Assembly (NCBI RefSeq): GCF_964204645.1
Contig: NC_134032.1
Span: forward strand, 15,679,775-15,743,774
Length of the DNA: 64,000 nt
Source of the DNA: Tubulanus polymorphus
Taxonomy: Eukaryota; Nemertea; Palaeonemertea; Tubulaniformes; Tubulanidae
Direction: 5' to 3'
Numbering within the stretch: position 1 is the first letter of the stretch; each line of letters begins with the position of its first letter. Below, one piece after another: positions 3,986-58,414 of the stretch. Position numbers and translations under genes: made by a program. Under the pieces are notes generated by a model. It was not told where the DNA came from. It saw only the letters and a list, made by a program, of their open reading frames with translations, and searched no databases.

Positions 3986-4266
3986 AGATAAAAACCCACT
4001 ATCTACAGAATAAAAGAATTTAAAATCAAGAATCTATTTATTCGAACAATTTGAAATATATAATAAACACGACGTTTCGACCTCACCCTAGAGATCCTCG
4101 TCAGGTGTCTTACGATGATCTCTAGGGTGGGATCAGGTGTCATCACCCGACGATGATTTCTAGTGTGAGATCGAAACGTTGTGTATTTTACATATTTCAA
4201 ATAGTTCGAATAAATAAATTCTTGATTTTAAATTCTTTTAATCTGTAAATAGTGGATTTTTATCTT
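3986..4266. mobile_element. Head-to-head pair of CTGACGA...GAAACG repeat elements
   Basis: Two copies of one element face each other. The left arm read on the minus strand gives CTGACGA, then GATCTCTAGGGTGAGGTC, then GAAACGTCGTG, then an AT-rich tail ending AAATTCTTTTA and GTGGGTTTTTATC. The right arm gives the same order on the plus strand, with CCGACGA in place of CTGACGA. Single copies occur at 15985-16115 (+) and 25215-25330 (-), and a tandem pair at 40435-40920. The CTGANGA ... GAAAC words with a complementary segment between resemble a hammerhead ribozyme core, as found in termini of Penelope-like retroelements. Assignment is inference. Confidence 0.55.
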
Positions 4267-13700: not shown

Positions 13701-16700
13701 GAAACAAACCATAAAAACGTGAACAGACTACAGCGAAATAGAATGGTCTTACTGCGCAGGCGCAGATCGGCCGGTCCGAATAATTTCATATCCTCCCTAG
13801 AAAAAGAAAAAATCATGAACCATTTTAAACATTTATCGGATGATGAAACGTTTTAGTTTATAACAAATCGGATCGATAGGTTTTAGATATAGACAAAAAG
13901 TACACAATATTGCGACACAGGGATAAACAGAGTGATCGCTTACCTTGTCGCTGTATTGTGTATCGTTATAACTGAACAATAAATCATATTTTGAAAATGG
14001 CTCGTAGAATTGAAAGTTGAAACATTTTAAACTGAATCTCTTAGACGTAGGGTAATGTCTATTTCAACTTGACTTGAGAGCATTCCTGGTGGCCCAGTTC
14101 GGTCGGTTTTGGTGGTACATACCCGATAAAGGTCAAGTTGAAATAGACATTAGTTACCTTGTCGCTATATCGTTATTACTGTATAATAAATCATATTTTG
14201 AAAATGGCTCAAAGAATTGAGAGTTGAGACGTTAAAACTATCTATTAATTTTTTCTTCTAATTGTGGGTTTATCAATCAGCCACTTGTCCACGGAAACCA
14301 AAGTAGATAAAGACACAAGTAGGTATTCAATGATATCGATGATAATCATAAGATAAAACATTATGCTATAACACAGTAGTTATCATAATCTTTATCATCG
14401 AAATCTCTGCGATTTTTAAAAATGAAATTTTCCTGAGCAAATTACGCACTCTCGATTTAACCTCAATCCAACTCCATTAGCTTCAGGTAGGTTATAAATA
14501 AAGTTTATCTAATATTAAATATAGCCGCGAACCATTTTCAAATTCAGCCGCGGATTTAAACTCGCTTTGAACTGTTACAATGTCTAGCGGTCTATGTTGT
14601 GTGTATTGTATTGTGCCAGTAGATTAAATCTAATAGCGCGAATAAACGGTTACCTGGGAATTCTATCTTTGCCGATTAAAGAAGGGCTGGGCCGACGTAA
14701 CCGGATTGGTATTAATACATTATCATGTACACGCGTAACACCGCGTGCAAACTTTATGATGATAATAATTTATTTATTTAGTTTATTTTCTAACAGTATC
14801 GATGTTAATTCTAAACGTCATCTTCAGAGGAAACTCTGAAATTCTGGTTCCTCTGAAGATGACGTTAAGAATTAACTTCGAAATTGTTAGGAAGTAAACT
14901 GTTTCTACAAGATCTACTGGGTTTTTTATTCGATGACTGGGTTATACTGGACTAGACTATTGAACTATACTGGACTGGACTGGACTGGACTGGACTAGAC
15001 TATTGGACTATACTGGTCTGAATGCTACTGGAATATACAGGACTGGGCTATACTGGACTGGACTATTGGACTATACTGGACTAGACTGGACTATACTGGA
15101 CTAGACTATTGGACTATACTGGACTAGACTATTGGACTATACTGGACTAGACTATTGGACCACTGGTCTGAACGCTACTGGAATATACAGGACTAGACTA
15201 TACTGGGCCGGACTATTGGATTATAGTGGACTGGACTGGACTGGACTGGACTGGACTGGACTAGACTGGACTGGACTATACTTACTGGACTATATCCCTT
15301 ATCGACAGTTGACCTCGTTTGTAGATCCAGCGTGCACCTGCTGATAGCGGGTAAAATACGACCATCCCCGACAAGGAAAAATATACGATAAAAAATGGAG
15401 CCATACAGTCCGTTTCAATAAACGTGAGCCACATGAATTGTGTTGACGAGACTAGAGTTATTCCGATTACGATCATAAATATTCCTCCCAGAATGCACCG
15501 CTGTATCCGGTCGGTGACGCAGTATTTCGCGGCCGATGATGACCCCCACAATGGAGGTTCGGAGGTCCCATCTGTGGAAGATAAAAACGAAAGAAAAATA
15601 AATTCGGTGATCGTCATCAAATACTTTGAACCGTAATAGAACTAGGCCTTCTCTGTACGCGTGCGCTCACTTCTCTCATACGAACCAAAGTTTGTATGTT
15701 TTTATTTTTTTATTCATTTTTTTTAAATTTTTTCAATTTTGATTCTAATTTTTTTTTTTTGGATTTCGTATGAATATTAATCGTGAACCAAAATAAAAGT
15801 CCATCCATTCAAACCATCAAAGAACATGTCTGAACGCGCGCGTTTAAACGATAATTTTCAATCGAGTAACCCCTTATACAGAGTAAAGAACAACGAATTG
15901 TTGTTATCTAGTTCCGGATTGTGATGATGTTCGTTTAGACGTTTTATTTGTTCATGAAGATCACTTTAAGAAAGAAAGTAGGAAACATTTGGGACACCTG
16001 ACGCTGATCTCTAGTGTGAGATCGAAACGTCGTGTTTTTACATTTTAGAAATAAATTCTCGATTTTAAATTCTTTTAACATTGTACATAGTGGGTTTTTA
16101 TCCTATTATTTAGGAGTGTTTTTCTTATTTTTTTCTGTAGTGTATGAGAGGCTATTCGAAATTTCTCAGATTCCGTTGAAGAGAGAACGAGAGACTAAAG
16201 AGTTCTCGGTGAAGGTTTAGAGATAGGCGTGGTGTAAGTGTCACTACTAAAGTGGCGGTCTTCAAACGCGTACACAGGAAGCCTTGACGGGCAATCCTCA
16301 TCAGTAACTATGGTTACAGAAATTGTCGGATTGACGAAAGTCCTGTTGCTATTAATAAATCGTCTTGATATAAAATTGCTTCTGGTATAAAATTATTTGA
16401 AATTATCGACTTTCAACAATGCGAGGAACGACTTTTCGAGCAGTCCCGATTTAGGTATAAATGAATCGATAATCTGTGCTGGTCCTTTAAAGATCTGTAT
16501 CAGGTATCTCCCACTAAAACTGATCGAGCTATCAATTTACGAAAAAAAATGAATAAGAAATCTATGTTTTAGTTAGGCTGCCCGTCAAAAATCATGTCGG
16601 TCATCTTTTCAACACCTGTATAATCTACCAGTACTCCACCAGAACTGATTATTAGGTTATTGTTCGAAATTTAAACAGAATTTTCCGCGCAAAATGAACA

Positions 16701-17203
16701 CGCAGATGATCCGACGATTAGCTTAAAAACGAAACGAAATGTAACCAGAAAAAAGGTTTGAACTATCGAGTGAAAATATATATTCGATTATCAAAATCCA
16801 TGATCTAAGACATTCTGCGCATGATTGTACAACCAGGATGGCCGAGTGGTTAAGGCGTTGGACTTAAGTTCCAATGGACGAATGTCCGCGTGGGTTCGAA
16901 CCCCACTCCTGGTAGATATTTTAACTGTGTCCCTAATGTAAAAATCATTTTACCTTCTTTTGTAACGGAAACTTGTGAGGTCGGTCTCGAATATAACAAA
17001 TCGGTCCTCGATTTTTGGACTTGTGATTTTGGCTTGGCTCCAACAACTGCAGCAGTTGTGTGGCCCGAAACCGCGTCGGCATCTGTGGTCACAATAGCCG
17101 GTATAGCGGGAGAAAACCGGGTCGGACTTCGGCCGTTACGAAAATCCACGAAGTTGCTCATCATGAATATATCCCTGTTCGAAGAGGCGCTTGATTTTGA
17201 CAT
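10758..17203 (-). CDS. SLC35F3/SLC35F4-like multi-spanning membrane transporter
   Basis: Eight phase-compatible coding exons: 16954-17203, 15286-15571, 13571-13796, 12691-12819, 12477-12543, 11729-11833, 11402-11491 and 10758-11008 (stop TGA). Together they are 1404 nt, 467 residues, close to the usual family length. After an 82-residue Ser-rich cytosolic start, about ten membrane segments follow. Family-like landmarks are SPSFVYLLSWIILQKKFLAI (exon 3), IVAVIFSISGVVLMAY (exon 4), VLFKRLMGD (exon 5), YQVFINIGLLLAIPFSA (exon 7) and VSAIVLIVISYVLVMIP (exon 8), matching the SLC35F3/F4 drug/metabolite transporter group. SLC35F3 has been linked to thiamine transport; the substrate here is unknown. 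The tail holds a QQQQQHLQQ run. Start: the first in-frame ATG, at 17203. The exon 2 donor lies inside an ACTGG repeat array, and intron 1 carries a tRNA gene on the other strand. The splice model is by eye. Confidence 0.88.
12042..12388. mobile_element. MITE-like element, GGGCCCAGTTGCAC termini
   Basis: The left end reads GGGCCCAGTTGCACAGTCGT and the right end is its reverse complement with few changes (ACGACTGTGCAACTGGGC), giving terminal inverted repeats of about 28 bp. A second left-like terminus at about 12227 (GGGCCCAGTAGCACGGTCAT) suggests a nested copy. The interior is built from AGACCAGTCTTAAATC-like words. It lies upstream of exon 5 within intron 5 territory of the transporter gene. 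A related copy is at about 28690-28830. No coding capacity. Confidence 0.7.
12395..12445 (+). repeat. tRNA-derived SINE fragment
   Basis: TGGTAGAGTCTGG (A box-like) is followed about 25 bp later by GAGGTCGAACCCGG (B box-like). The spacing is too short for a full tRNA, and no acceptor stem closes. Probably a SINE remnant. Confidence 0.45.
13280..13430. repeat. G-rich minisatellite, ~20-bp unit
   Basis: About seven copies of GTGAACTGAGGGGGCAGGG-like units, in the intron between transporter exons 3 and 4. A second G-rich run (GGGGAGAGGGGAGAGGG) is at 12855-12910. Confidence 0.85.
14047..14160. mobile_element. Short MITE, TAATGTCTATTTCAACTTGAC termini
   Basis: Near-perfect terminal inverted repeats: AATGTCTATTTCAACTTGAC on the left and GTCAAGTTGAAATAGACATT on the right, enclosing GGTCGGTTTTGGTGGTACAT. 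Related termini occur at about 22080-22190 and in the large foldback element at 34486-34990. Located in an intron of the transporter gene. Confidence 0.75.
14815..14880. repeat. Hairpin with CCTCTGAAGATGACGTTA arms
   Basis: Inverted repeat: TAACGTCATCTTCAGAGG-like left arm (one extra base, AAACGTCATC) against CCTCTGAAGATGACGTTAAG, about 17 bp apart, flanked by TTAATTCT/AGAATTAA. The CTGAAGATGAC word recurs in the 69-bp arrays at 31.1 and 41.5 kb, so this is probably a head-to-head remnant of a related element. Confidence 0.6.
14935..15292. repeat. ACTGG pentanucleotide array
   Basis: Degenerate (ACTGG)n array with higher-order pieces (TATTGGACTATACTGGACTA). Its right end overlaps the 3' end of transporter exon 2: the donor CCA|GTAAGT (exon end 15286) is embedded in the array sequence. 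Confidence 0.9.
15985..16115 (+). mobile_element. CTGANGA...GAAACG repeat element, single copy
   Basis: CTGACGCTGATCTCTAGTG, then TGAGATCGAAACGTCGTG, then an AT-rich tail with GATTTTAAATTCTTTTAAC and GTGGGTTTTTATC, the same order as in the 4.0-kb pair. The core is CTGACGC rather than CTGACGA. Lies in transporter intron 1. Confidence 0.6.
16832..16914 (+). tRNA. tRNA-Leu (anticodon TAA), copy 1
   Basis: Acceptor strands ACCAGGA and TCCTGGT pair. The A box region is TGGCCGAGTGGTTAAGGC, the anticodon arm TTGGACTTAAGTTCCAA (loop CTTAAGT, anticodon TAA), the long class II variable arm TGGACGAATGTCC, and the B box GGTTCGAACCC. There is no intron and no encoded CCA, as in eukaryotic nuclear genes. 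It lies inside intron 1 of the minus-strand transporter, in the opposite orientation. A byte-identical copy is 1.5 kb downstream. Confidence 0.95.
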
Positions 17204-18244: not shown

Positions 18245-18420
18245 ACCAGAAAAAGAAGCTTGAATTCTATCGAGTGAAAATATGAATTCGATTATCAAAA
18301 TTCATAATCTGAGACATTGTGCACGTTACTGTACAACCAGGATGGCCGAGTGGTTAAGGCGTTGGACTTAAGTTCCAATGGACGAATGTCCGCGTGGGTT
18401 CGAACCCCACTCCTGGTAGA
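18245..18420. repeat. Duplicated segment carrying the second tRNA-Leu
   Basis: About 90 bp upstream of both tRNA-Leu genes (from about 16745 and 18250) is related: ATCGAGTGAAAATAT, TTCGATTATCAAAAT, GAGACATT/AAGACATT. This shows a segmental duplication of about 170 bp, not independent tRNA insertion. The flank has diverged while the tRNA is unchanged. Confidence 0.8.
18336..18418 (+). tRNA. tRNA-Leu (anticodon TAA), copy 2
   Basis: Sequence identical over all 83 nt to the gene at 16832-16914, with the same cloverleaf elements (loop CTTAAGT, variable arm TGGACGAATGTCC, B box GGTTCGAACCC). It is intergenic, upstream of the transporter gene. A short T run follows within 15 bp, as a Pol III terminator would. 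Confidence 0.95.
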
Positions 18421-23500: not shown

Positions 23501-25492
23501 ATTTTCGCACGAACTCAACCGGAAACGGATATAGTTAAATACATGAGCTTCGCGCACGCGCACTTACGTTTTCCCTAGTTCCGTCGTCTGCGTCGAAATG
23601 ATACGTCTCGATACGATACATAAAATCATCGTTCATAAAATTGTTCTGCAAAAGAAAAAAAAGGGAATTCGTACCCGACTGAAACCGACGCCATATTGTT
23701 GGTCGATTGAGTTTAAATCTTGAGTCGAAATAGTTCAGTTTCAATTCTTTTGATTCTAGGGTCATGATTTTTAAATAGTAATGTACAGGGTAGATAGGCG
23801 ACCGACCGGAAACAAATTCTAAGCTCAACAGAATTGTGAAACAAAGTATCAATTCTTAGCTTTAAATGATACCTATTTAACACAATGAAAGGTTACGCAA
23901 TAAAGCGATCAAATTGTGATTTATTTGTTATTTTCATTTTTAACTGACCGTTATATCAGTTTTACAATACGGATAGGCGTTCCAGGATTTTTCGTCCACG
24001 TCCAGATAGTCATTGGGCGTCAAATAGCGCACAAACGCAGGAAGTTTCCTGTGAAATACAAACGAGATAACATGCAACACGTGGGTTTCAACAAGCCGAG
24101 ATCATAATCCCATCGATCATTTATTGCAACCTGCTTTTAAAATACAAGTGCTATTAGAAGTTTTGTTATAACAGTTTTATTATTCTTGTCACCTATAGTC
24201 ATGTAATATTGATTTAAAAGACAATAAACAACATTTGAATTGAATTGGATTGCAACACGAACATCGACTTGTCACTTCGATCAGTGTTGACAAGAATCAG
24301 GACAGAGTCCCGGAAGACCGCTTCTCTTCTCCCCTTCCCTCGGAAAGCCCAGGGGCCAGTTGCTCAAACATTGGTTAAAGATAACCAGTGGATAAATACC
24401 ATAGTAACAATGATATTTCAATATTGTCAACGAGTCAGCTATCCACTGGTTAACTCTAACCAACTTTTGAGCAACTTGTTTCCCCATCTGGTCCCAATGT
24501 ACGTACTCAGATAGGTGGATCTTTTTGTCAACGAGTCAGCTATCCACTGGTTAACTCTAACCAACTTTTTATACGTACTCAGATAGGTGGATCTTTTTAC
24601 GTGTAAACTGTCCACTATTAAACCCGTCCGGTAAGTCGTGTTCGTCTGAACCAGTAAACGGTATATTCTCCACGTATTCGATTCCTTCTCCTCCCCCCGT
24701 TTCTGTTTTACTCGATCGTGATATCGCGTAAAGCCTAGCGATTTTATGCTGCAAAAATAAACAGCGAGTCTCTATATATATGAATCAGTTGAGAATCATC
24801 GCAATATCCGCGATAAAACGATGAGATCCGACAATGAATGAACGAATCTAAAAAGTTTATTCAAAAAAATTGGTAATATTTCGGATGGTTGCTACCACAC
24901 CCTTATTCAGTCTGAAATCACTTGCAAAAAAAACACACTGAGTCTCTATATATTAGTTAAAGATGCGCCGAAAATTTCGATATCTGAATGAAAATTATAG
25001 TTGTTAGTTTATAATGAACTACATACCTCATCAACAGTCATTGGTAAGCGTATCCGGCTGATGTAAAAGATTTAAAAAGAAAAAACAAAACACATTTAAA
25101 AAACCATTTCATCCAGAAAGCGATTCGTACTTTATCTAAAAGCGTTAGTTTTATTCGTGTACTATAAATCATGACTTATTGATAACTATAAGAACCTAAT
25201 ATGTACAGATAAGAAATTTCAAAAATCGAGAATTTCATTTAATCAAAAATTCAAAATGACACGAAGACATTTCGACTCTCTATAGATCATCGTCAGGCGT
25301 CATTTCAATTTTTGATTGAATTAATTCTTGATTTTTTTAGTTGGCTTCACATTTTAGTTTGGTTGTGTGCTATTGACTTATGACTTACTATTCTAGTATC
25401 ATCGAAGGCTGTTGTTTGTCCGGGTTTTGAGACTCCGTCGATTCATCTGACGACGACGAATTGAAATCGAAAATTCTCGGAAGAAACGGCAT
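20595..25492 (-). CDS. Class I phosphatidylinositol transfer protein (PITP)
   Basis: Ten phase-consistent exons: 25389-25492, 25027-25057, 24579-24748, 23949-24048, 23568-23645, 23272-23355, 22374-22451, 21826-21918, 21415-21537 and 20595-20636 (stop TGA). Total 903 nt, 300 residues. The family exchanges phosphatidylinositol and phosphatidylcholine between membranes in the cytosol. Landmarks in order: [10 protein letters not shown], the [14 protein letters not shown] loop, [11 protein letters not shown] (the conserved Thr and Lys that bind the inositol headgroup), [18 protein letters not shown], the [11 protein letters not shown] stretch, the membrane-inserting double Trp in [27 protein letters not shown] and the short tail [13 protein letters not shown]. 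The first ATG gives a roughly 30-residue Ser/Asp/Glu-rich extension absent from typical PITPs. A second ATG at 25402 in the same exon would give 270 residues, the usual length. Splice joins were inferred by eye. Confidence 0.92.
20866..21262. repeat. 27-bp minisatellite carrying GCGATCGC palindromes
   Basis: About 15 copies of AAGGAGTGATCGCGATCGCC+TGACTGC in PITP intron 9. Each unit holds an 8-bp palindrome, and variants (ATCATGATCG, ATCGTGATCG) differ in the palindrome core. The unit length is a multiple of three, so long spurious frames appear on both strands. Confidence 0.95.
24352..24482. mobile_element. Foldback MITE, CCAGTTGCTCAAA termini
   Basis: Left arm CCAGTTGCTCAAACATTGGT with TAACCAGTGGATA. 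Right arm TATCCACTGGTTAACTCTAA with CCAACTTTTGAGCAACTT. The arms are reverse complements of about 40 bp. A relative is at 30837-30972. The right arm has been copied again at about 24523-24568, next to PITP exon 3. Confidence 0.7.
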
Positions 25493-30560: not shown

Positions 30561-30836
30561 TATATATTCGAACCTGATTCATTTCCAAGATTCACCCCCG
30601 AGCACATTCATGCATGCAATAAACAAGTTGAGGTCACACTTCCCATTTCACGGGGGGGGGGGGGATGTCAACATAAGATAAATCGAATAAATAAAATCCT
30701 ACAATAGGAACGAGTATGATATGTTTCCTTTGGATAGTATCCTGAAGATGACTATTTCCAATACAGTAAAAACACTAATATAGTCATCTCCAGTATTACT
30801 GAAATTATAACTAATTCATGAAAAGTGTATAAAATC

Positions 30837-31074: not shown

Positions 31075-32113
31075 GATTGTCTGAAGATGACTATCAGGAT
31101 AAAGTCGAAACGTTGAATAAACTACACTAGCTCAAGGAATACAGTATTTCTGAAGATGACTATTAGGATATAGTCGAAACGTTGAATAAACTACACTAGC
31201 TCAAGGAATACAGTATTCCCGAAGATGACTATTAGGATATAGTCGAAACGTTGAATAAACTACACTAGCTCAAGGAATACAGTATTCCTGAAGATGACTA
31301 TTAGGATAAAGTCGAAACATTTAATAAACTACACTAGCTCAGGGAATACAGTATTCCCGAAGATGACTATTTATAGGATATAGTCGAAACGTTAAATAAA
31401 CTACACTAGCTCAAGGAATACAGTATTCCTGAAGATGACTATTAGGATATAGTCGAAACGTTGAATAAACTACACTAGCTCAAAGAATACAGTATTCCTG
31501 AAGATGACTATTAGGAAAAAGTCGAAACGTTGAATAAACTACACTAGCTCAAGGAATACAGTATTCCTGAAGATGACTATCAGGATATAGTCGAAACGTT
31601 GAATAAACTACACTAGCTCAAAGAATACAGTATTCCTGAAATGACTATTAGGATTAAGTCGAAACGTTGAATAAACTACACTAGCTCAAGGAATACAGTA
31701 TTTCTGAAGATGACTATTAGGATAAAGTCGAAACGTTGAATAAACTACACTAGCTCAAAGAATACAGTATTCCTGAAATGACTATTAGGATTAAGTCGAA
31801 ACGTTGAATAAACTACACTAGCTCAAGGAATACAGTATTCCCGAAGATGACTATTAGGATATAGTCGAAACGTTGAATAAACTACACTAGCTCAAGGAAT
31901 ACAGTATTCCTGAAGATGACTATTAGGATATAGTCAAAACGTTGAATAAACTACACTAGCTCAAGGAATACAGTATTTCCGAAGATGACTATTAGGATAT
32001 AGTCAAAACGTTGAATAAACTACACTAGCTCAAGGAATACAGTATTCCTGAAGATGACTATTAGGATTAAGTCGAAACGTTGAATAAACTACACTAGCTC
32101 AAGGAAACATTTC
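31075..32113. repeat. 69-bp tandem array 1, hammerhead-like core
   Basis: About 15 copies of a 69-bp unit. In unit order: GGAATACAGTATTCC (self-complementary), CTGAAGA, T, GACT-ATTAGGATAA-AGTC (complementary ends), GAAACGTTGAATAAA, CTACACTAGCTCAA. Two copies, 136 bp apart (near 31637 and 31773), share the same deletion (CTGAAATGAC) and GGATTAAG variant, showing a two-unit higher-order duplication. The array ends at CTCAAGGAAACATTTC. Intergenic, between the PITP and calmodulin-like genes. Confidence 0.92.
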
Positions 32114-37100: not shown

Positions 37101-40100
37101 ACGAGACGCAACTGGTCCCGATCCCATCTTCAGGCTTTTCTAGACTTAACACCAACCAGTCTAAGCCTCGACTGGGCCAGAACTTTGAAACTATAGGTTT
37201 CTTAAGGCATTATATCGAATATTAACGGTCTAACCTCATTATTTGAAAACATTATTTCCTCTAAATGAATATAGACTGATTTGTGTAGCCTTTTAAACAC
37301 ATACTTCACGTCTGATATATAATGCATGAAGTGGACTCTTGTGTATAACTCGAATTCATATAGGTTTAATTGAGAGAGAATGCACATGTCATTATTACCT
37401 GCTACAGTGTAGAATTAGAATCGCTTCCATAATAATATCGGTAATCATAGTTAATGTGTATATCATATAGCGGTAATACGATTGATACAGAAATAGAGTT
37501 TGAGAAATACTGCAGAATTTGGGCAGCTCAACTTCTATCCCGAGTTGGTACCAAATATTGAGTAAAAATTTGCGTAATACGTTTTTCCAATTGAATGTGT
37601 ATTGTTTGTAATTTAATTTTTAATCTTCTTTCCTCCTGTAGTTTGGATTTTTATTTTTTGGCGAAATAAAGACATATTGTTATTATTCTATCATCAAGAT
37701 GCTATCGTGGAGTTGGTCAAAAGAGTTTGTGAAATACAGTAGACTCTGTCTCTTACTGCGGTTAAGTTGAGACTAGTAAAATTCTACCCCGAGTTGGTGT
37801 CAAATGCTGAGTAAGAGTTTGTGAAATACAGTAGACTCTGTCTCTTACTGCGGTAAAGTTGAGACCGGTAAAATTCTACCCCGAGTAGGTGTTAAATGCC
37901 GAGTAAGAGTTTGTGAAATACAGTAGACTCTGTCTCTTACTGCGGTAAAGTTGAGACCGGTAAAATTCTACCCCGAGTTGGTGTCAAATATTGAGTAAGA
38001 GTTTGTGAAATACAGTAGACTCTGTCTCTTACTGCGGTAAAGTTGAAACCGGTAAAATTCTACCCCGAGTTGGTGTCAAATACTGAGTAAGATTTTGTGA
38101 AATACAGTAGACTCTGTCTCTTACTGCGGTAAAGTTGAAACCGGTAAAATTCTACCCCGAGTTGGTGTCAAATACTGAGTAAGAGTTTGTGAAATACAGT
38201 AGACTCTGTTTCTTACTGCGGTAAAGTTAAGACCGGTAAAATTCTACCCCGAGTTGGTGTCAAATACTGAGTAAGAGTTTGTGAAATACAGTAGACTCTG
38301 TCTCTTACTGCGGTAAAGTTAAGACCGGTAAAATTCTACCTCGAGTAGGTGTTAAATACTGAGTAAGAGTTTGTGAAATACAGTAGACTATGTCTCTTAC
38401 TGCGGTAAAGTTGAGACCGGTAAAATTCTACCTCGAGTAGGTGTTAAATACTGAGTAAGAGTTTGTGAAATACAGTAGACTATGTCTCTTACTGCGGTAA
38501 AGTTGAGACCGGTAAAATTCTACCCCGAGTTGGTGTCAAATATTGAGTAAGAGTTTGTGAAATACAGTAGACTCTGTCTCTTACTGCGGTAAAGTTGAGA
38601 CCGGTAAAATTCGGACCCCAAACAGGTGCACTCGGTTAGACCCCAATCGGGATGAACTAACCTGAAAGCTTCCTTTATCTCTTCCTCTCGGTTGCATTCT
38701 TTCTCTTTCCGTACCATCATTTTGAGGAATTCGTCGAAGTCAATTGTGCCGCTATCTAAAAGTACAAACAAAGTCAACGATCCTAGGATTAATGAAACTC
38801 GAATCCACGGCGTCAACCAGATCAATTTTATCAATGTTATAAGTTTATTTCGGGCGCCGCGCGAGGTTTTCGACGCTTTATCGTTAACCCGTTCAGATTC
38901 GTCCCGAAAGATATCATTCACCGTCCGGTGGCTCCCCCTAAGATCGTTAATATATCCAGATTGATTTTGAATCAGTCGCCGCTGCCGAGGTTTTATCGAA
39001 GACATATTATCATCCGGTTTGAAGCGCGCGCTGATTTTCACAAAAGTCTCAAAACGCTAATTTATTATCGGCGGTTCTTAATACGCAGTTTTCATCGCAC
39101 GCACTTCCGTATCCGGTATAGAATAAATCTCGCGAGACTTCGCGTTATTCCCGCGCCATTGCGGTGATCACGGGATTTGGTGGTTTAGTGGAGGGTGATT
39201 ATAACAGCCGTCCGGACCGAGCAGACGACCGTGATGCTCAGTGCGCCTGTGCTGATGGTTACTACACTGTAACACTGTATTCCCCTCCGCGATTTGCTGC
39301 GAGTTTTCATTCGGCCTTCACACCGCGTATCGCATCATCACGTGATACGTTAACGCAATAGATCGCTAGCTTTTTCTCTTTTTTCAAATGATCAATGATT
39401 AAAGCCGTTATTTTTCAAATTTATTTGTATTTATGAAATAGTGCCGTATTTTATACAATATGTCTGTACTTTTTTCTCTGAAGACAAATACAGCTTAAAC
39501 CAAACAATACAGATTGAGGCTCAAAAATAGAGATGACTTCAGTAATGTGACAACTTATCCAAATGATGACTTACACTTAGTAAATTGAATTAGAAATATA
39601 AATTTAGACTCAAAAATAGATATGACTTCAGTAATGTGACGACTTTATCCAAATGATGACTTACACTTAGTAAATTGAATTAGAAATACAAATTGAGACT
39701 CAAAAATAGAGATGACTTCAGTAATGTGACGACTTTATCCAAATGATGACTTACACTTAGTGAATTGGATTAGAAATATAAATTGAGACTCAAAAATAGA
39801 GATGACTTCAGTAATATGACGACTTATCCAAATGATGACTTACACTTAGTGAATTGGATTAGAAATATAAATTGAGACTCAAAAATAGATATGACTTCAG
39901 TAATGTGACGACTTTATCCAAATGATGACTTACATTTTAAATTGAATTAGAAATACAAAATTGGCAGTGGGATGTTGACGCGTTTGAGTACATGCTATGA
40001 TAATCTGTTCATCATTCTCGATAACAATCTGTCAAACAAAATATCATCCGATATAAATTATTCAAATCATGATCACCACCTTCGCGCATGCGTCACTGAG

Positions 40101-43100
40101 CAATTATATCAGTTAGACCCTAGCCTACCGCGCAACACATTTACCAGTATATTCCGTATATAGATCTATAATTCATTGAATTCGCTTTATCCAAATCGGC
40201 CTGGTGGCGATTACCAGAACACGAAATGTCACAATAAATAGCCTATTACATCGTGTTAGTATTTATAATCGATGAAACCATTGATGAAACGTTTTACGTT
40301 CATTTTGTAAAAGATTATACAAAATCCAACGCTGAAAGTAAAAAGTTTCAGAAACGCAGGCGATGTTTCCCTGAGCTTGTACGTAGTTTATTCGACTCAG
40401 ATTAGTGAGTCTTCGGGAATAGTACGATAACCTGTACACTCAAAAGTGGTGAATGGATAATAAGATAAAAGCCCACAATGAACGAATTTAAAAAATTCTA
40501 AACTCGAGAATTTATCTCTAATATGTAAAAAACCACGACGTTTCGATCTCACACTAGATATCATCGTCAGGTGTGAGATATAGACTAAAAGCAGGGGTAT
40601 ATATACAGAGGAGGACAGGTTAATTGAGTAAATTGATGAGTAAGTAAGTAATTAGTGTTTGGCAAGGCCTCCTCCGTATATAAAAACGTGGTGAACGGAT
40701 AATAAGATAAAAATCTACTATGTACAAATTAAAAGAATCAAAATCGGGAATTTATTATTTCAAAAAATCTCTAAAAGATACCGCGACGTTTGGATCTCAA
40801 CCTTGAGATTATCGACAGGTGTGAGATGGTGACTTAAAACGGACGGGAAGAATATGAGGCTATTGTGTAAATTAGCGAGTGAGTAAGTAATTAGTGTTTG
40901 GCAAGGCCTCCTTAGTAAATTATTGACTCATTTAAGAGAACATCGAACGCGGAAATGAGGCCGACTTTCTACTAGCGACACCTGGTGGATCCGAACGCGG
41001 AAATAAGACCGTCTATCTACTAGCGGCACCTGGCGGATCCTCGCCTGCCATACGTGGAATCCTCAATTGCCACACTGCGGGTATCCCATTTACTGATGCG
41101 TCCATGTTTTATCATACCAACCAACGAAAATCGATTACCAAACCTTCTTCCCACTCGAAACAGGCGACGTAACTTAATACAAGAAATTAATTCTCACATC
41201 CCGGAAGAAGAATTAGACTTCGTATACCGGTCACGGGACTCATATACTTATGTCGTATATTGAATGTTTTAGAGACTCATATACGTATGTCGTATATTGA
41301 ATGTCTTATATCCATCGACCGCTGGGTGTTATCACACAGTAAGTGGCGGAACGCTTACAATTGAAATACTCACTGATAACCATATTTACATTGTACTCGT
41401 GTAGTGAAGTTATTTTTGAAGTGTTTGAATTTAAGCGATACCGCCTGTATCTGAACTGTATCCAAACTGTATCCTAACTGTATCTAGATAGTATCTTAAC
41501 TGTATCCATGGAATACAGTATTCCTGAAGATGACTATTAGGATAAAGTCGAAACGTTGAATAAACTACACTAGCTCAAGGAATACAGTATTCCTGAAGAT
41601 GACTATTAGGATAAAGTCGAAACGTTGAATAAACTACACTAGCTCAAGGAATACAGTATTCCTGAAGATGACTATTAGGATATAGTCGAAACGTTGAATA
41701 AACTACATTAGCTCAAGGAATACAGTATTCCTGAAGATGACTATTAGGATAAAGTCGAAACGTTGAATAAACTACACTAGCTCAAGGAATACAGTATTCC
41801 TGAAGATGACTATTAGGATAAAGTCGAAACGTTGAATAAACTACACTAGCTCAAGGAATACAGTATTCCTGAAGATGACTATTAGGATAAAGTCGAAACG
41901 TTGAATAAACTACACTAGCTCAAGGAATACAGTATTCCTGAAGATGACTATTAGGATAAAGTCGAAACGTTGAATAAACTACACTAGCTCAAGGAATACA
42001 GTATTCCTGAAGATGACTATTAGGATTTAGTCGAAACGTTGAATAAACTACACTAGCTCAAGGAATACAGTATTCCTGAAGATGACTATTAGGATTTAGT
42101 CGAAACGTTGAATAAACTACACTAGCTCAAGGAATACAGTATTCCTGAAGATGACTATTAGGATTTAGTCGCAACGTTGAATAAACTACACTAGCTCAAG
42201 GAATACAGTATTCCTGAAGATGACTATTAGGATAAAGTCGAAACGTTGAATAAACTACACTAGCTCAAGGAAACATTTCAGACTCTTTTTATTCTTAGTG
42301 CGCAAGGATTTTCGACATCGTTTTTACAACACGGATTCAGAGAGTGTTTCATCATCGTCATTTCCTTCCCCAAATATCACAGAGATTTAAAAAAAAAACC
42401 AAAACGCATCTTAAAAATCGAAAAGAATTTTCAGTTTTCAGTTGCTCACGATAAATAAATCTTACCATCTTCGTCGACCTCATTTATCATGTCCTGTAAT
42501 TCACCTTCGGTCGGATTCTGACCTAATGACCTCATTACTGTACCCAATTCTTTAGTCGTTATCGATCCGTCGCCATCTTTATCGAACAGCGAGAAAGCTT
42601 CTCTGTATTCTGTGAAATAGAAAAACTGAAATATCAAAATCGAGGGTTCGTTACAACTACACATACGCCATCTGCCGTCGTGTAGGCACATTATGTGTTT
42701 TTATCTTAAAATACGGATTGACCGGGTGATTGACCCCCATTATTCATTTGATTGGTAGATTTCGTTTGATTTATTTTGATTTGGTGTCCCTTTACAAACC
42801 ACACCTGCCGGGAACGAAACAGGGGGTTAGATGTAGAAATCGAAGTACAGATAACGGATGGACGGACACATTGTGTTCATCACTAGGAGACTCAGAAACT
42901 GATGTCGTTCAGTCGTTTCTAAACGAAACAGCATCATTTACAAATTACAATCACTAGTTCTGTACCCTGTTCCACAGTTCAGTTCCACAGTTCAGTTCCA
43001 CAGTTCAGTTCCACAATTCTGTACCCAGTTCCACAGTTCAGTTCCACAATTCTGTACCCTGTTCTTCAGTTCAGTTCCACAGTTCAGTTCCACAATTCTG

Positions 43101-55554: not shown

Positions 55555-55980
55555 ATAATACTGAGTAAGAGTTTGTGAAATACAGTAGACTCTGTCTCTT
55601 ACTGCGGTAAAGTTGAGACCGGTAAAATTCTACCCTGAGTTGGTGTTAAATACTGAGTAAGAGTTTGTGAAATACAGTAGACTCTGTCTCTTACTGAAGT
55701 TGAAACCGGTAAAATCCTCAATCTCAATTTTCTCAATGATATATGTTTATAGTAGACTCTGTCTCTTACTGCGGTAAAGTTGAGACCGGTAAAATTCTAC
55801 CCCGAGTTGGTGTCAAATACTGAGTAAGAGTTTGTGAAATACAGTAGACTCTGTCTCTTACTGCGGTAAAGTTGAGACCGGTAAAATTCTACCCCTAGTT
55901 GGTGTCAAATACTGAGTAAGAGTTTGTGAAATACAGTAGACTCTGTCTCTTACTGAAGTTGAAACGGGTAAAATTCTCAA
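55555..55980. repeat. 92-bp tandem array 2
   Basis: Five copies, two with internal deletions (CTTACTGAAGTTGAAAC), of the unit seen at 37705-38612. Intergenic. Confidence 0.93.
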
Positions 55981-57945: not shown

Positions 57946-58222
57946 ATTAGAATATAAACTTACCCGAAAGTGCTAAACTAGTTTTTATATCAGTTTCGTT
58001 CAGGGCTGACCCACATTTTATTTGAATCTGCGGCCCCAGATCTGCTGTATACCCAGCCATCTATTGGAGTTGTCTCAAATCAAGACTGGCCTAAATCAAA
58101 TCCATGTAGAAAGACGCCAAGATGGTAAAAAAGACTTGTACTGACACGTGTTAGACGCAATACACTTGACAGTACCATGTTCAGGATTTTCTAACTTGTT
58201 TCATGGTTGATAACTCCCTAAT

Positions 58223-58414
58223 GGGAGTGAGCCGATCCTGGAGGTACTGCAATACCAGGCCAACTCGTGGCGAAGGCGGAGCAAGCCCCTGACTCTTCAC
58301 CTAGTGCCAAAAATCAGTTTAATATCGAAGCTCCCCGATGGGGAGCGTATCAGATATTAAGCTGATAAGAACAGATACTACACTTTGATCTTAGCCAATA
58401 GGCCGAGAAGCGAT
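58223..58414 (-). ncRNA. U2: U2 spliceosomal snRNA
   Basis: Minus-strand sequence starts ATCGCTTCTCGGCCTATTGG and contains the branch-site pairing element GTAGTA (in ATCAAAGTGTAGTATCTG), the stem-loop CTTATCAGCTTAATATCTGA, the Sm site GATTTTTGG, and the 3' stem-loop GGCCTGGTATTGCAGTACC. Length about 192 nt, as usual. The ATCAAAGTG spelling is that of invertebrate U2 RNAs. U2 pairs with the intron branch point in the major spliceosome. All functional elements look intact, so I expect an active gene; the exact 3' end is approximate. Confidence 0.96.

Follow-up and report, generated by a model that had tools for sequence, protein, structure and literature searches.

Does the hammerhead-like core of a 69-bp tandem array in the nemertean Tubulanus polymorphus belong to a genuine hammerhead ribozyme, and if so, of what kind and from what source? 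The array (array 1) lies in the 64,000-nucleotide stretch of NC_134032.1 analysed here (positions 15,679,775 to 15,743,774; the window), 0.93-1.0 Mb from the right end of contig 8 in a genome of 268 Mb and 77 contigs. The original prediction described a hammerhead-like order in every unit, with Penelope-like element (PLE) termini as one known setting of such cores, and found neither a clean cleavage triplet nor a helix III. The present analysis identifies the motif as the minimal type I hammerhead of PLEs, which lacks stem III in a single unit, an assignment that is well supported at the sequence level.

The unit reads, in order, TATTC, CTGAAGA, T, GACTAT-TAGGAT-ATAGTC, GAAA, CGT, T and GAATA. 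Stem I comprises five base pairs, formed between the TATTC that precedes CTGAAGA and the GAATA directly after GAAACGTT. Because stem I pairs with this downstream GAATA and not with the upstream GGAATAC, both of the elements that had seemed to be missing can be placed: the predicted triplet is GTT (GUU in RNA), of the cleavable NUH type, and helix III (ACGT) can form, albeit between two units only. Since there is no loop between A15.1-C and G-U16.1, followed by H17, the ACGU of one copy would have to pair with the ACGU of a second. In a tandem transcript, the stem pairings of neighbouring units are nested. The self-complementary GGAATACAGTATTCC directly before CTGA had been proposed as stem I. 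While it is indeed present in the 69-bp unit, it is absent both from a 167-bp sister repeat and from the PLE leader described below. A type III order with this hairpin as stem I was also considered and rejected, as no U precedes the hairpin and the hairpin is missing from the 167-bp unit and the PLE.

Tandem Repeats Finder reports 14.9 copies with 94% matches for array 1, the unit having a GC content of 35%. A second array with the same 69-bp unit (array 2), absent from the original prediction, lies further along the window, and CTGAAGATGACTAT, allowing up to two mismatches, occurs 29 times in the window compared with 0.63 expected from shuffles. The predicted order of CTGAAGA, T, GACT..AGTC and GAAACG is found in array 1, though not in every unit: CTGAAGA is intact in nine of the 15 units, reads CCGAAGA in four and has lost GA in two, and GAAA is intact in 13, so that both core parts survive together in eight. 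In array 2, both are intact in ten of 11 units.

Pattern counts across the genome agree with the constraints of a hammerhead. The pattern CTGANGATG-N16-CGAAACGTH has 3,221 matches and the same pattern read backwards has none, while a core with G17, which is forbidden at the cleavage position, has only 24; the matches are not independent, as both 3,221 and 24 count array units and related copies. Allowing 17 free bases, one more than above, yields 72 matches, which reveal further stem II families, and again none in reverse. A looser descriptor (CTGANGA, zero or one base, a stem II of at least 4 bp, and GAAA) matched 498 times in 269,667 fetched bases, compared with 0.4 times in mononucleotide shuffles. 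Because the loci, 34 with arrays (L012-L045) and five with the 167-bp relative (L046-L050), were fetched for the array, the weight of the descriptor lies in other families with different letters. Among the 47 matches with other loops, which include array variants, 40 have a stem I of at least 3 bp placed exactly 4 nt after GAAA. The letters of this stem vary by family, being TATTC/GAATA, ACAC/GTGT (CAC/GTG) or CGC/GCG, and some copies have no stem I.

Stem II was examined in an alignment (A1) of 34 distinct cores, taken from the 100 listed genome places of the H17 pattern. Of its cells, 91.7% are paired, and its covariation of 0.721 compares with 0.291 ± 0.029 in shuffles and with at most 0.240 when the alignment is slid; both measures exceed all 500 shuffles. 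Furthermore, a covariance model (R1) was constructed from 12 of the 16 hammerheads of other families of this genome found outside the window. Ten of the 12 belong to one family, family A, and the model leans towards intact copies, as three of the four omitted hammerheads lack most of stem I. R1 matches all 26 units, 15 in array 1 (E values from 2.4e-13 to 4.7e-6, roughly calibrated) and 11 in array 2, and, with E below 1e-4, a further six places in the window (Table 1). The original prediction had named the lack of any covariance-model hit as grounds for abandoning the hammerhead; this is what the Rfam families gave, and it is not what the PLE-type model gave. The proposed order of CUGANGA, stem II and GAAA is thus upheld by covariation, by the independent model R1, by the G17 rule and by identity to a core carried by a PLE.

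Table 1. Coordinates, in the numbering of the window, of the arrays, of the parts of one example unit of array 1 and of related features.
Feature	Position	Strand	Basis
Array 1: 15 units of 69 bp, all containing one minimal PLE-type hammerhead, intact or broken	31081..32106	+	Tandem Repeats Finder; covariance model R1; unit table
Array 2: 11 units of 69 bp	41510..42272	+	Tandem Repeats Finder; model R1; unit table
Palindrome GGAATACAGTATTCC of the 69-bp unit, competing with stem I	31415..31429	+	folding; 167-bp unit without palindrome
Stem I, 5' strand TATTC, example unit	31424..31428	+	sequence
Core C3-A9 CTGAAGA, example unit (unpaired T at 31436)	31429..31435	+	sequence
Stem II GACTAT/ATAGTC with loop TAGGAT, example unit	31437..31454	+	covariation among the 34 distinct cores of alignment A1
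GAAA, then CGT (with the last A, palindrome ACGT; stem III in dimer only), and H17 = T	31455..31462	+	pattern counts, H17 against G17
Predicted cleavage site, example unit	between 31462 and 31463	+	
Stem I, 3' strand GAATA, example unit	31463..31467	+	sequence
Leader remnant 3' of array 1, extending slightly beyond the counterpart of the AC-rich stem-loop	32103..32182	+	leader extension to 90/104, score 14, weak
Leader remnant 3' of array 2, including the AC-rich stem-loop and terminating shortly after it	42269..42354	+	leader extension to 82/104, score 49
Dispersed PLE-type hammerhead, family A	15990..16039	+	R1, 65 bits (most of R1 derives from family A)
Dispersed PLE-type hammerhead, family A	4063..4112	-	R1, 61 bits
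Inverted partner of the copy at 4063-4112	4139..4188	+	R1, 56.9 bits
Dispersed PLE-type hammerhead, family A, near array 2	40529..40578	-	R1, 58 bits
Weaker dispersed PLE-type hammerhead	40776..40826	-	R1, 34.4 bits
Weak PLE-type hammerhead	25255..25304	-	R1, 26 bits, E 3.4e-5

The core is linked to PLEs of the same genome. Roughly 1.6 kb from an array, in L031, an open frame encodes a piece of reverse transcriptase (RVT_1, E 2.8e-5, 24.4 bits against a curated cut-off of 29.6). A genome search with this piece scored 150 matches among 575 candidates, and 15 of these lie in open frames of at least 800 residues; the frames reach 841 residues, and several copies stand in tandem at a spacing of 2,733-2,866 bp. 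We provisionally take the linked copies to be PLEs, partly on the strength of known PLE motifs. In one of them (L061, contig 12), a core that matches one of the two common unit variants letter for letter, followed by GAATAAACTAC, sits between two open reading frames (ORFs), with a GIY-YIG end upstream (E 2.4e-4, 21.8 bits, cut-off 22.6; the domain is cut by the edge of the locus) and the next ORF downstream. The suspected link to Penelope-like elements is supported by this identity, the tandem ORFs that flank the core having uninterrupted frames. A second PLE (L062), 69% identical over the reverse transcriptase query, carries a different core, GGCTAA/TTAGCC, which also adjoins an array in L034. 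A minimal hammerhead of stems I and II only thus stands beside PLE ORFs in both L061, with the same core, and L062, with the core of another subfamily; in a third subfamily (L063), a hammerhead was looked for and none was found. Searches of the N-terminal part of the L061 ORF and of the L062 piece against Pfam gave no match at E <= 0.1, and a PDB search with the GIY-YIG piece gave none at E <= 0.01.

A search with the flank of an array revealed a sister satellite, whose tandem units are mostly 166-169 bp long and which, among the matches listed, lies mainly on contig 8 at 0.19-2.3 Mb. Its 167-bp unit consists of the 69-bp part and about 98 further bases, and it aligns lengthwise with the L061 leader from the hammerhead to the start ATG, with a score of 155 compared with a maximum of 42 in 100 shuffles. 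Among the additional bases is ACACGGACTCAGAGTGT, which corresponds to ACACGGATATTGTGT of the PLE, and units of 69 and 167 bp are mixed in two arrays (L048 and L050). In a 167-bp array at G000:C8:371800-374300 (L046), AGTGGAAA replaces AGTCGAAA in nine of the 11 listed units, so that the first stem II pair is broken in most of the array. In a PLE of Anolis, according to passages of PMC11167929, reverse transcription begins at an AC-rich stem-loop with two start sites, and the stretch between them corresponds to an optional 30-40-bp tail of genomic copies.

Extension of each array or fragment into the 104-position leader of the 167-bp unit gave 58 rows, single fragments included, of which 37 stop at or before position 32, two run to 104 and 19 stop in between. 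Three of these 19 (L021+, L048 and L049) continue past a small gap and are not ends. The remaining 16 usable ends fall at positions 44-51, just before the stem-loop, in six cases, at 80-91, just after it, in eight, and between these in two. Those array ends that can be placed in the leader therefore lie mostly at PLE-like 3' ends. In the autonomous PLE leader, 27 of 44 rows reach the end of the query, 13 stop at 154-161, two at 118-120 and two elsewhere, the two groups of stops likewise flanking the stem-loop. The 15 family-A copies (the yardstick among them), numbered in their own coordinates, include seven that stop at 85-91 and seven that stop at 101-126, small indels marking some of the latter stops. 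All of these end groups were defined after viewing the data. No target-site duplication was seen at array 1 on inspection by eye.

At the 5' side, 25 of the 43 rows with at least three units start within the 18 of 69 positions that run from one base inside the core to 16 bases upstream of C3; 13 start elsewhere in the unit (one at a locus edge) and five in leader of the 167-bp type. Similarly, the sequence common to 16 family-A copies extends only about four bases upstream of C3. The 5' edge of the hammerhead thus appears to be a preferred starting point of short copies, and it is not the predicted point of cleavage.

The arrays are also unevenly distributed. A BLAST search of the genome with a three-unit query gave at least 212 matches (497 candidates, 40 scored). 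Among the matches listed, 37 of 38 array places (both window arrays are counted) are no more than 2.1 Mb from a contig end, where 18.8% would be expected on the nine contigs concerned, and 29 lie within 1 Mb (8.9% expected); when arrays less than 300 kb apart are merged, 19 of 20 clusters are near contig ends. Because this list ranks by identity, diverged arrays elsewhere may be missed. Perfect-match cores of family A on contigs 1 and 2 are near contig ends in 16 of 81 cases (13.1% expected, p 0.06), and the closest PLE reverse transcriptase copies avoid contig ends, with three of 49 within 2.1 Mb (19.2% expected; 49 of the first 51 rows, two contig-7 rows being left out). One 69-bp array, at G000:C3:27804115, lies within about 4 kb of the end of contig 3 (27,807,848 bases). 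Minisatellites in general may favour chromosome ends in this genome, the present window alone giving 95 Tandem Repeats Finder rows.

That the arrays represent a PLE-type hammerhead and leader turned satellite is well supported by their sequence. A fuller explanation, which we consider likely, is that they are non-autonomous PLE derivatives in which the hammerhead segment was multiplied, which were placed in the PLE manner and which grew by unequal exchange. Core architecture, covariation, the identity of the PLE core, the common leader, the PLE-like ends of part of the arrays and the subtelomeric bias of the listed arrays were observed; from these we infer mobilisation in trans by a PLE and growth by unequal exchange. 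The founding element would have been a hammerhead and leader derived from between the tandem ORFs of an autonomous PLE, within which the hammerhead segment may have been multiplied head to tail to give 167-bp and, in shorter form, 69-bp units. As each unit encodes a minimal type I hammerhead whose stem III needs two units, an array transcript could cleave after GUU as a double hammerhead, and would then shed RNAs of 69 or 167 nt. New copies would enter the genome through PLE-type reverse transcription that begins at the leader's AC-rich stem-loop, with later expansion of the arrays via unequal exchange, chiefly near chromosome ends.

Several observations weigh against this explanation, or against an active ribozyme within it. 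Rfam reports no hammerhead above its gathering score in the window, and none even at E <= 10 in array 1 or in the five 167-bp loci. Two of the five stem II measures in alignment A1 lie within the shuffles, with five double-change pairs (4.8 in shuffles) and ten further pair types (11.4 in shuffles) and thus no excess; moreover, the search pattern itself dictates the first pair, and related sequences inflate covariation scores. The monomer lacks stem III, and barely half of the units of array 1 are intact. A usable end within leader positions 40-104 was obtained in only 16 of the 58 rows. In addition, since leader identity outside the core is only moderate, the PLE identified here is best described as a relative of the source.

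The conservation profile and predicted folding point in the same direction. The profile comprises 519 units in 41 locus-and-strand sets, which were anchored on the spacer with at most six mismatches in 21 and therefore slightly favour the spacer. CUGANGA...GAAA is kept in 466 of the 519 units, yet the core varies as much as the spacer, at 0.84% for C3-A9 without N7 and 1.06% for G12-A15.1 compared with 0.85%; stem III varies at 2.4%. Mutations that ignore the stem II pairing, which the original prediction would have counted against a hammerhead, are found in part in the 69-bp family: the fifth pair is lost (A.A) in 268 of the 519 units, while 28 of the 43 changes at the first pair are C to T and keep a G-U pair. 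Nearest-neighbour folding, in which tertiary energy is not counted, favours another structure over the double hammerhead both for the 69-bp dimer (-33.1 compared with -14.3 kcal/mol) and for the 167-bp dimer (-63.9 compared with -49.5 kcal/mol). In the former, the palindrome GGAATACAGTATTCC pairs with that of the next unit and outcompetes the double hammerhead. A bimolecular prediction has two separate hammerheads pairing via AACGUU with AACGUU. According to passages of PMC11167929, the Anolis ribozyme cleaves only with the PLE protein present and is dispensable for insertion in vitro; therefore, neither folding nor the absence of visible selection settles whether the ribozyme is active.

The alternative that survives best agrees with the preferred explanation in everything except function. 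A PLE leader fragment near chromosome ends would have had its 69-bp segment multiplied by slippage or unequal exchange, with the hammerhead as an inert passenger, and we judge this only a little short of evenly balanced. It would account for a core no more conserved than its spacer, for the seven broken units out of 15 in array 1, for a palindrome in the 69-bp unit that opposes the ribozyme fold and for the company of many unrelated minisatellites in the window (95 rows, some overlapping), and it accords with the insertion in vitro of hammerhead mutants of a PLE, as reported in passages of PMC11167929. The retention of the core in 466 of 519 units speaks against it, although homogenisation accounts for this equally, and the starts near the 5' side of the hammerhead, together with the PLE-like 3' ends of part of the arrays, point to insertion of an element as the founding step. 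As to whether the arrays in life yield self-cleaving RNAs or are inert minisatellites, for array 1 we lean slightly towards the latter.

Also nested within the preferred explanation is a retrozyme-like cycle, in which double hammerheads would cleave the transcript and the resulting 69-nt or 167-nt RNAs would be closed into circles; the PLE enzyme would copy these into concatemers, which would then insert as new arrays. In favour of such a cycle are the type I hammerheads in tandem units and a leader with stem-loop common to the arrays and the co-resident PLE. Furthermore, 167 bp falls within the 150-450 bp given for animal type I hammerhead repeats in passages of PMC7229834, whose authors name PLEs as a strong candidate for their mobilisation on the grounds of common hammerheads, tandem copies and co-existence. 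We nevertheless find this cycle unlikely, as the join of the 167-bp unit and many array starts lie upstream of the hammerhead and away from the predicted cleavage site. Moreover, a 69-nt RNA would be smaller than the sizes reported, the monomer has no helix III and folding prefers other structures.

The subtelomeric position of the listed arrays could instead be attributed to Terminon-type PLEs (Athena), which attach to telomeres and lack an endonuclease, and hammerhead-carrying relatives of this kind are described in passages of PMC12477314 and PMC7761336. This is very improbable here, since a GIY-YIG end is encoded by the very PLE that carries the identical core and the closest reverse transcriptase copies are scarce near contig ends (three of 49 within 2.1 Mb, compared with 19.2% expected). 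Finally, a chance resemblance to a hammerhead core, for which the silence of Rfam might be cited, can be dismissed in view of the 3,221 matches compared with none reversed and 24 with G17, the covariation, the match to an independent model and the position between PLE ORFs.

Minimal PLE hammerheads without stem III were reportedly defined by Cervera and de la Pena in 2014 and by Lunse, Weinberg and Breaker in 2017. Passages of PMC7761336 and PMC6155905 present PLE hammerheads as minimal type I motifs without helix III, possibly acting as dimers, that occur in PLEs and as dispersed motifs; the form found here is the same and occurs in both settings, but is in addition arrayed in units of 69 and 167 bp, most of the listed arrays being near chromosome ends. 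PAc, the Poseidon PLE of Anolis carolinensis, offers a closer comparison (passages of PMC11167929). It likewise has tandem copies and an AC-rich stem-loop with two copy ends, and its ATG stands where stem II begins, the cut being 26 bp further along; the cut predicted here would follow base 28 counted from the A of the ATG. While the hammerhead ATG opens the ORF in PAc, its frame here stops after five codons, and the ORF would therefore start at a later ATG.

Among known satellites, animal non-LTR (long terminal repeat) retrozymes share tandem repetition, low GC, a type I hammerhead and no evident coding capacity, but passages of PMC7229834 give them units of 150-450 bp and mostly canonical hammerheads, in contrast to the present units, which can be as short as 69 bp and carry the minimal PLE form. 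The 69-bp unit thus falls outside the definition of a retrozyme by both size and hammerhead type, and the 167-bp sister agrees with it in size only. Newt satellite 2 is also a type I hammerhead satellite with a weak helix III and is active as a dimer (passages of PMC6155905); its units are about 330 bp long (passages of PMC7229834), and those passages make no mention of a link to a PLE leader. No description of subtelomeric satellites made of PLE leader was recognised in the literature searched, which misses most subscription papers and the primary papers on PLE hammerheads. A bolder idea, which we regard as rather doubtful, is that the arrays are a missing link from PLEs to animal retrozymes: ORF-less leaders with 167-nt and then 69-nt monomers that would cleave as dimers, moved in trans by the enzyme of the co-resident PLE and favoured in survival or landing near chromosome ends.

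Some further features of the window deserve mention. About 290 bp before array 1, at 30742-30793, CTGAAGATGACTAT is followed 24 bases on by an inverted near-copy, perhaps a decayed inverted hammerhead fragment. Family-A hammerheads occur in close pairs, opposed at 4063-4112 and 4139-4188 and both on the minus strand at 40529-40578 and 40776-40826; opposed pairs no more than about 150 bp apart recur among the pattern matches listed. Among the unrelated minisatellites, one 92-bp repeat is present at both 37721-38612 and 55751-55955. Two tRNA matches of equal score (62.7 bits) stand about 1.5 kb apart at 16832-16914 and 18336-18418, each 83 bases long compared with a 71-position model, and the Rfam scan gave a full-length U2 small nuclear RNA match on the minus strand at 58222-58414 (187 bits). 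Rfam matches to group I introns, small nucleolar RNAs and microRNAs in array 1 and the 167-bp loci were far below their gathering scores and were rejected. A genome search with the hammerhead family RF00163 gave three sub-threshold matches and was uninformative, as 11 of 14 control genomes also match, none over the cut-off.

In practical terms, Rfam 15 at gathering thresholds reports none of the 26 units of the window, while a small family-specific model finds all 26. For the biology of these elements, the significance lies in the combination, within one genome, of a PLE whose frames are uninterrupted, a 167-bp satellite matching the leader of that PLE, a reduced 69-bp form and arrays that mix the two, all with the same ribozyme core. 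With a co-resident PLE, satellites and, in part of the arrays, PLE-like ends at hand, the link from PLEs to ribozyme repeats therefore becomes testable.
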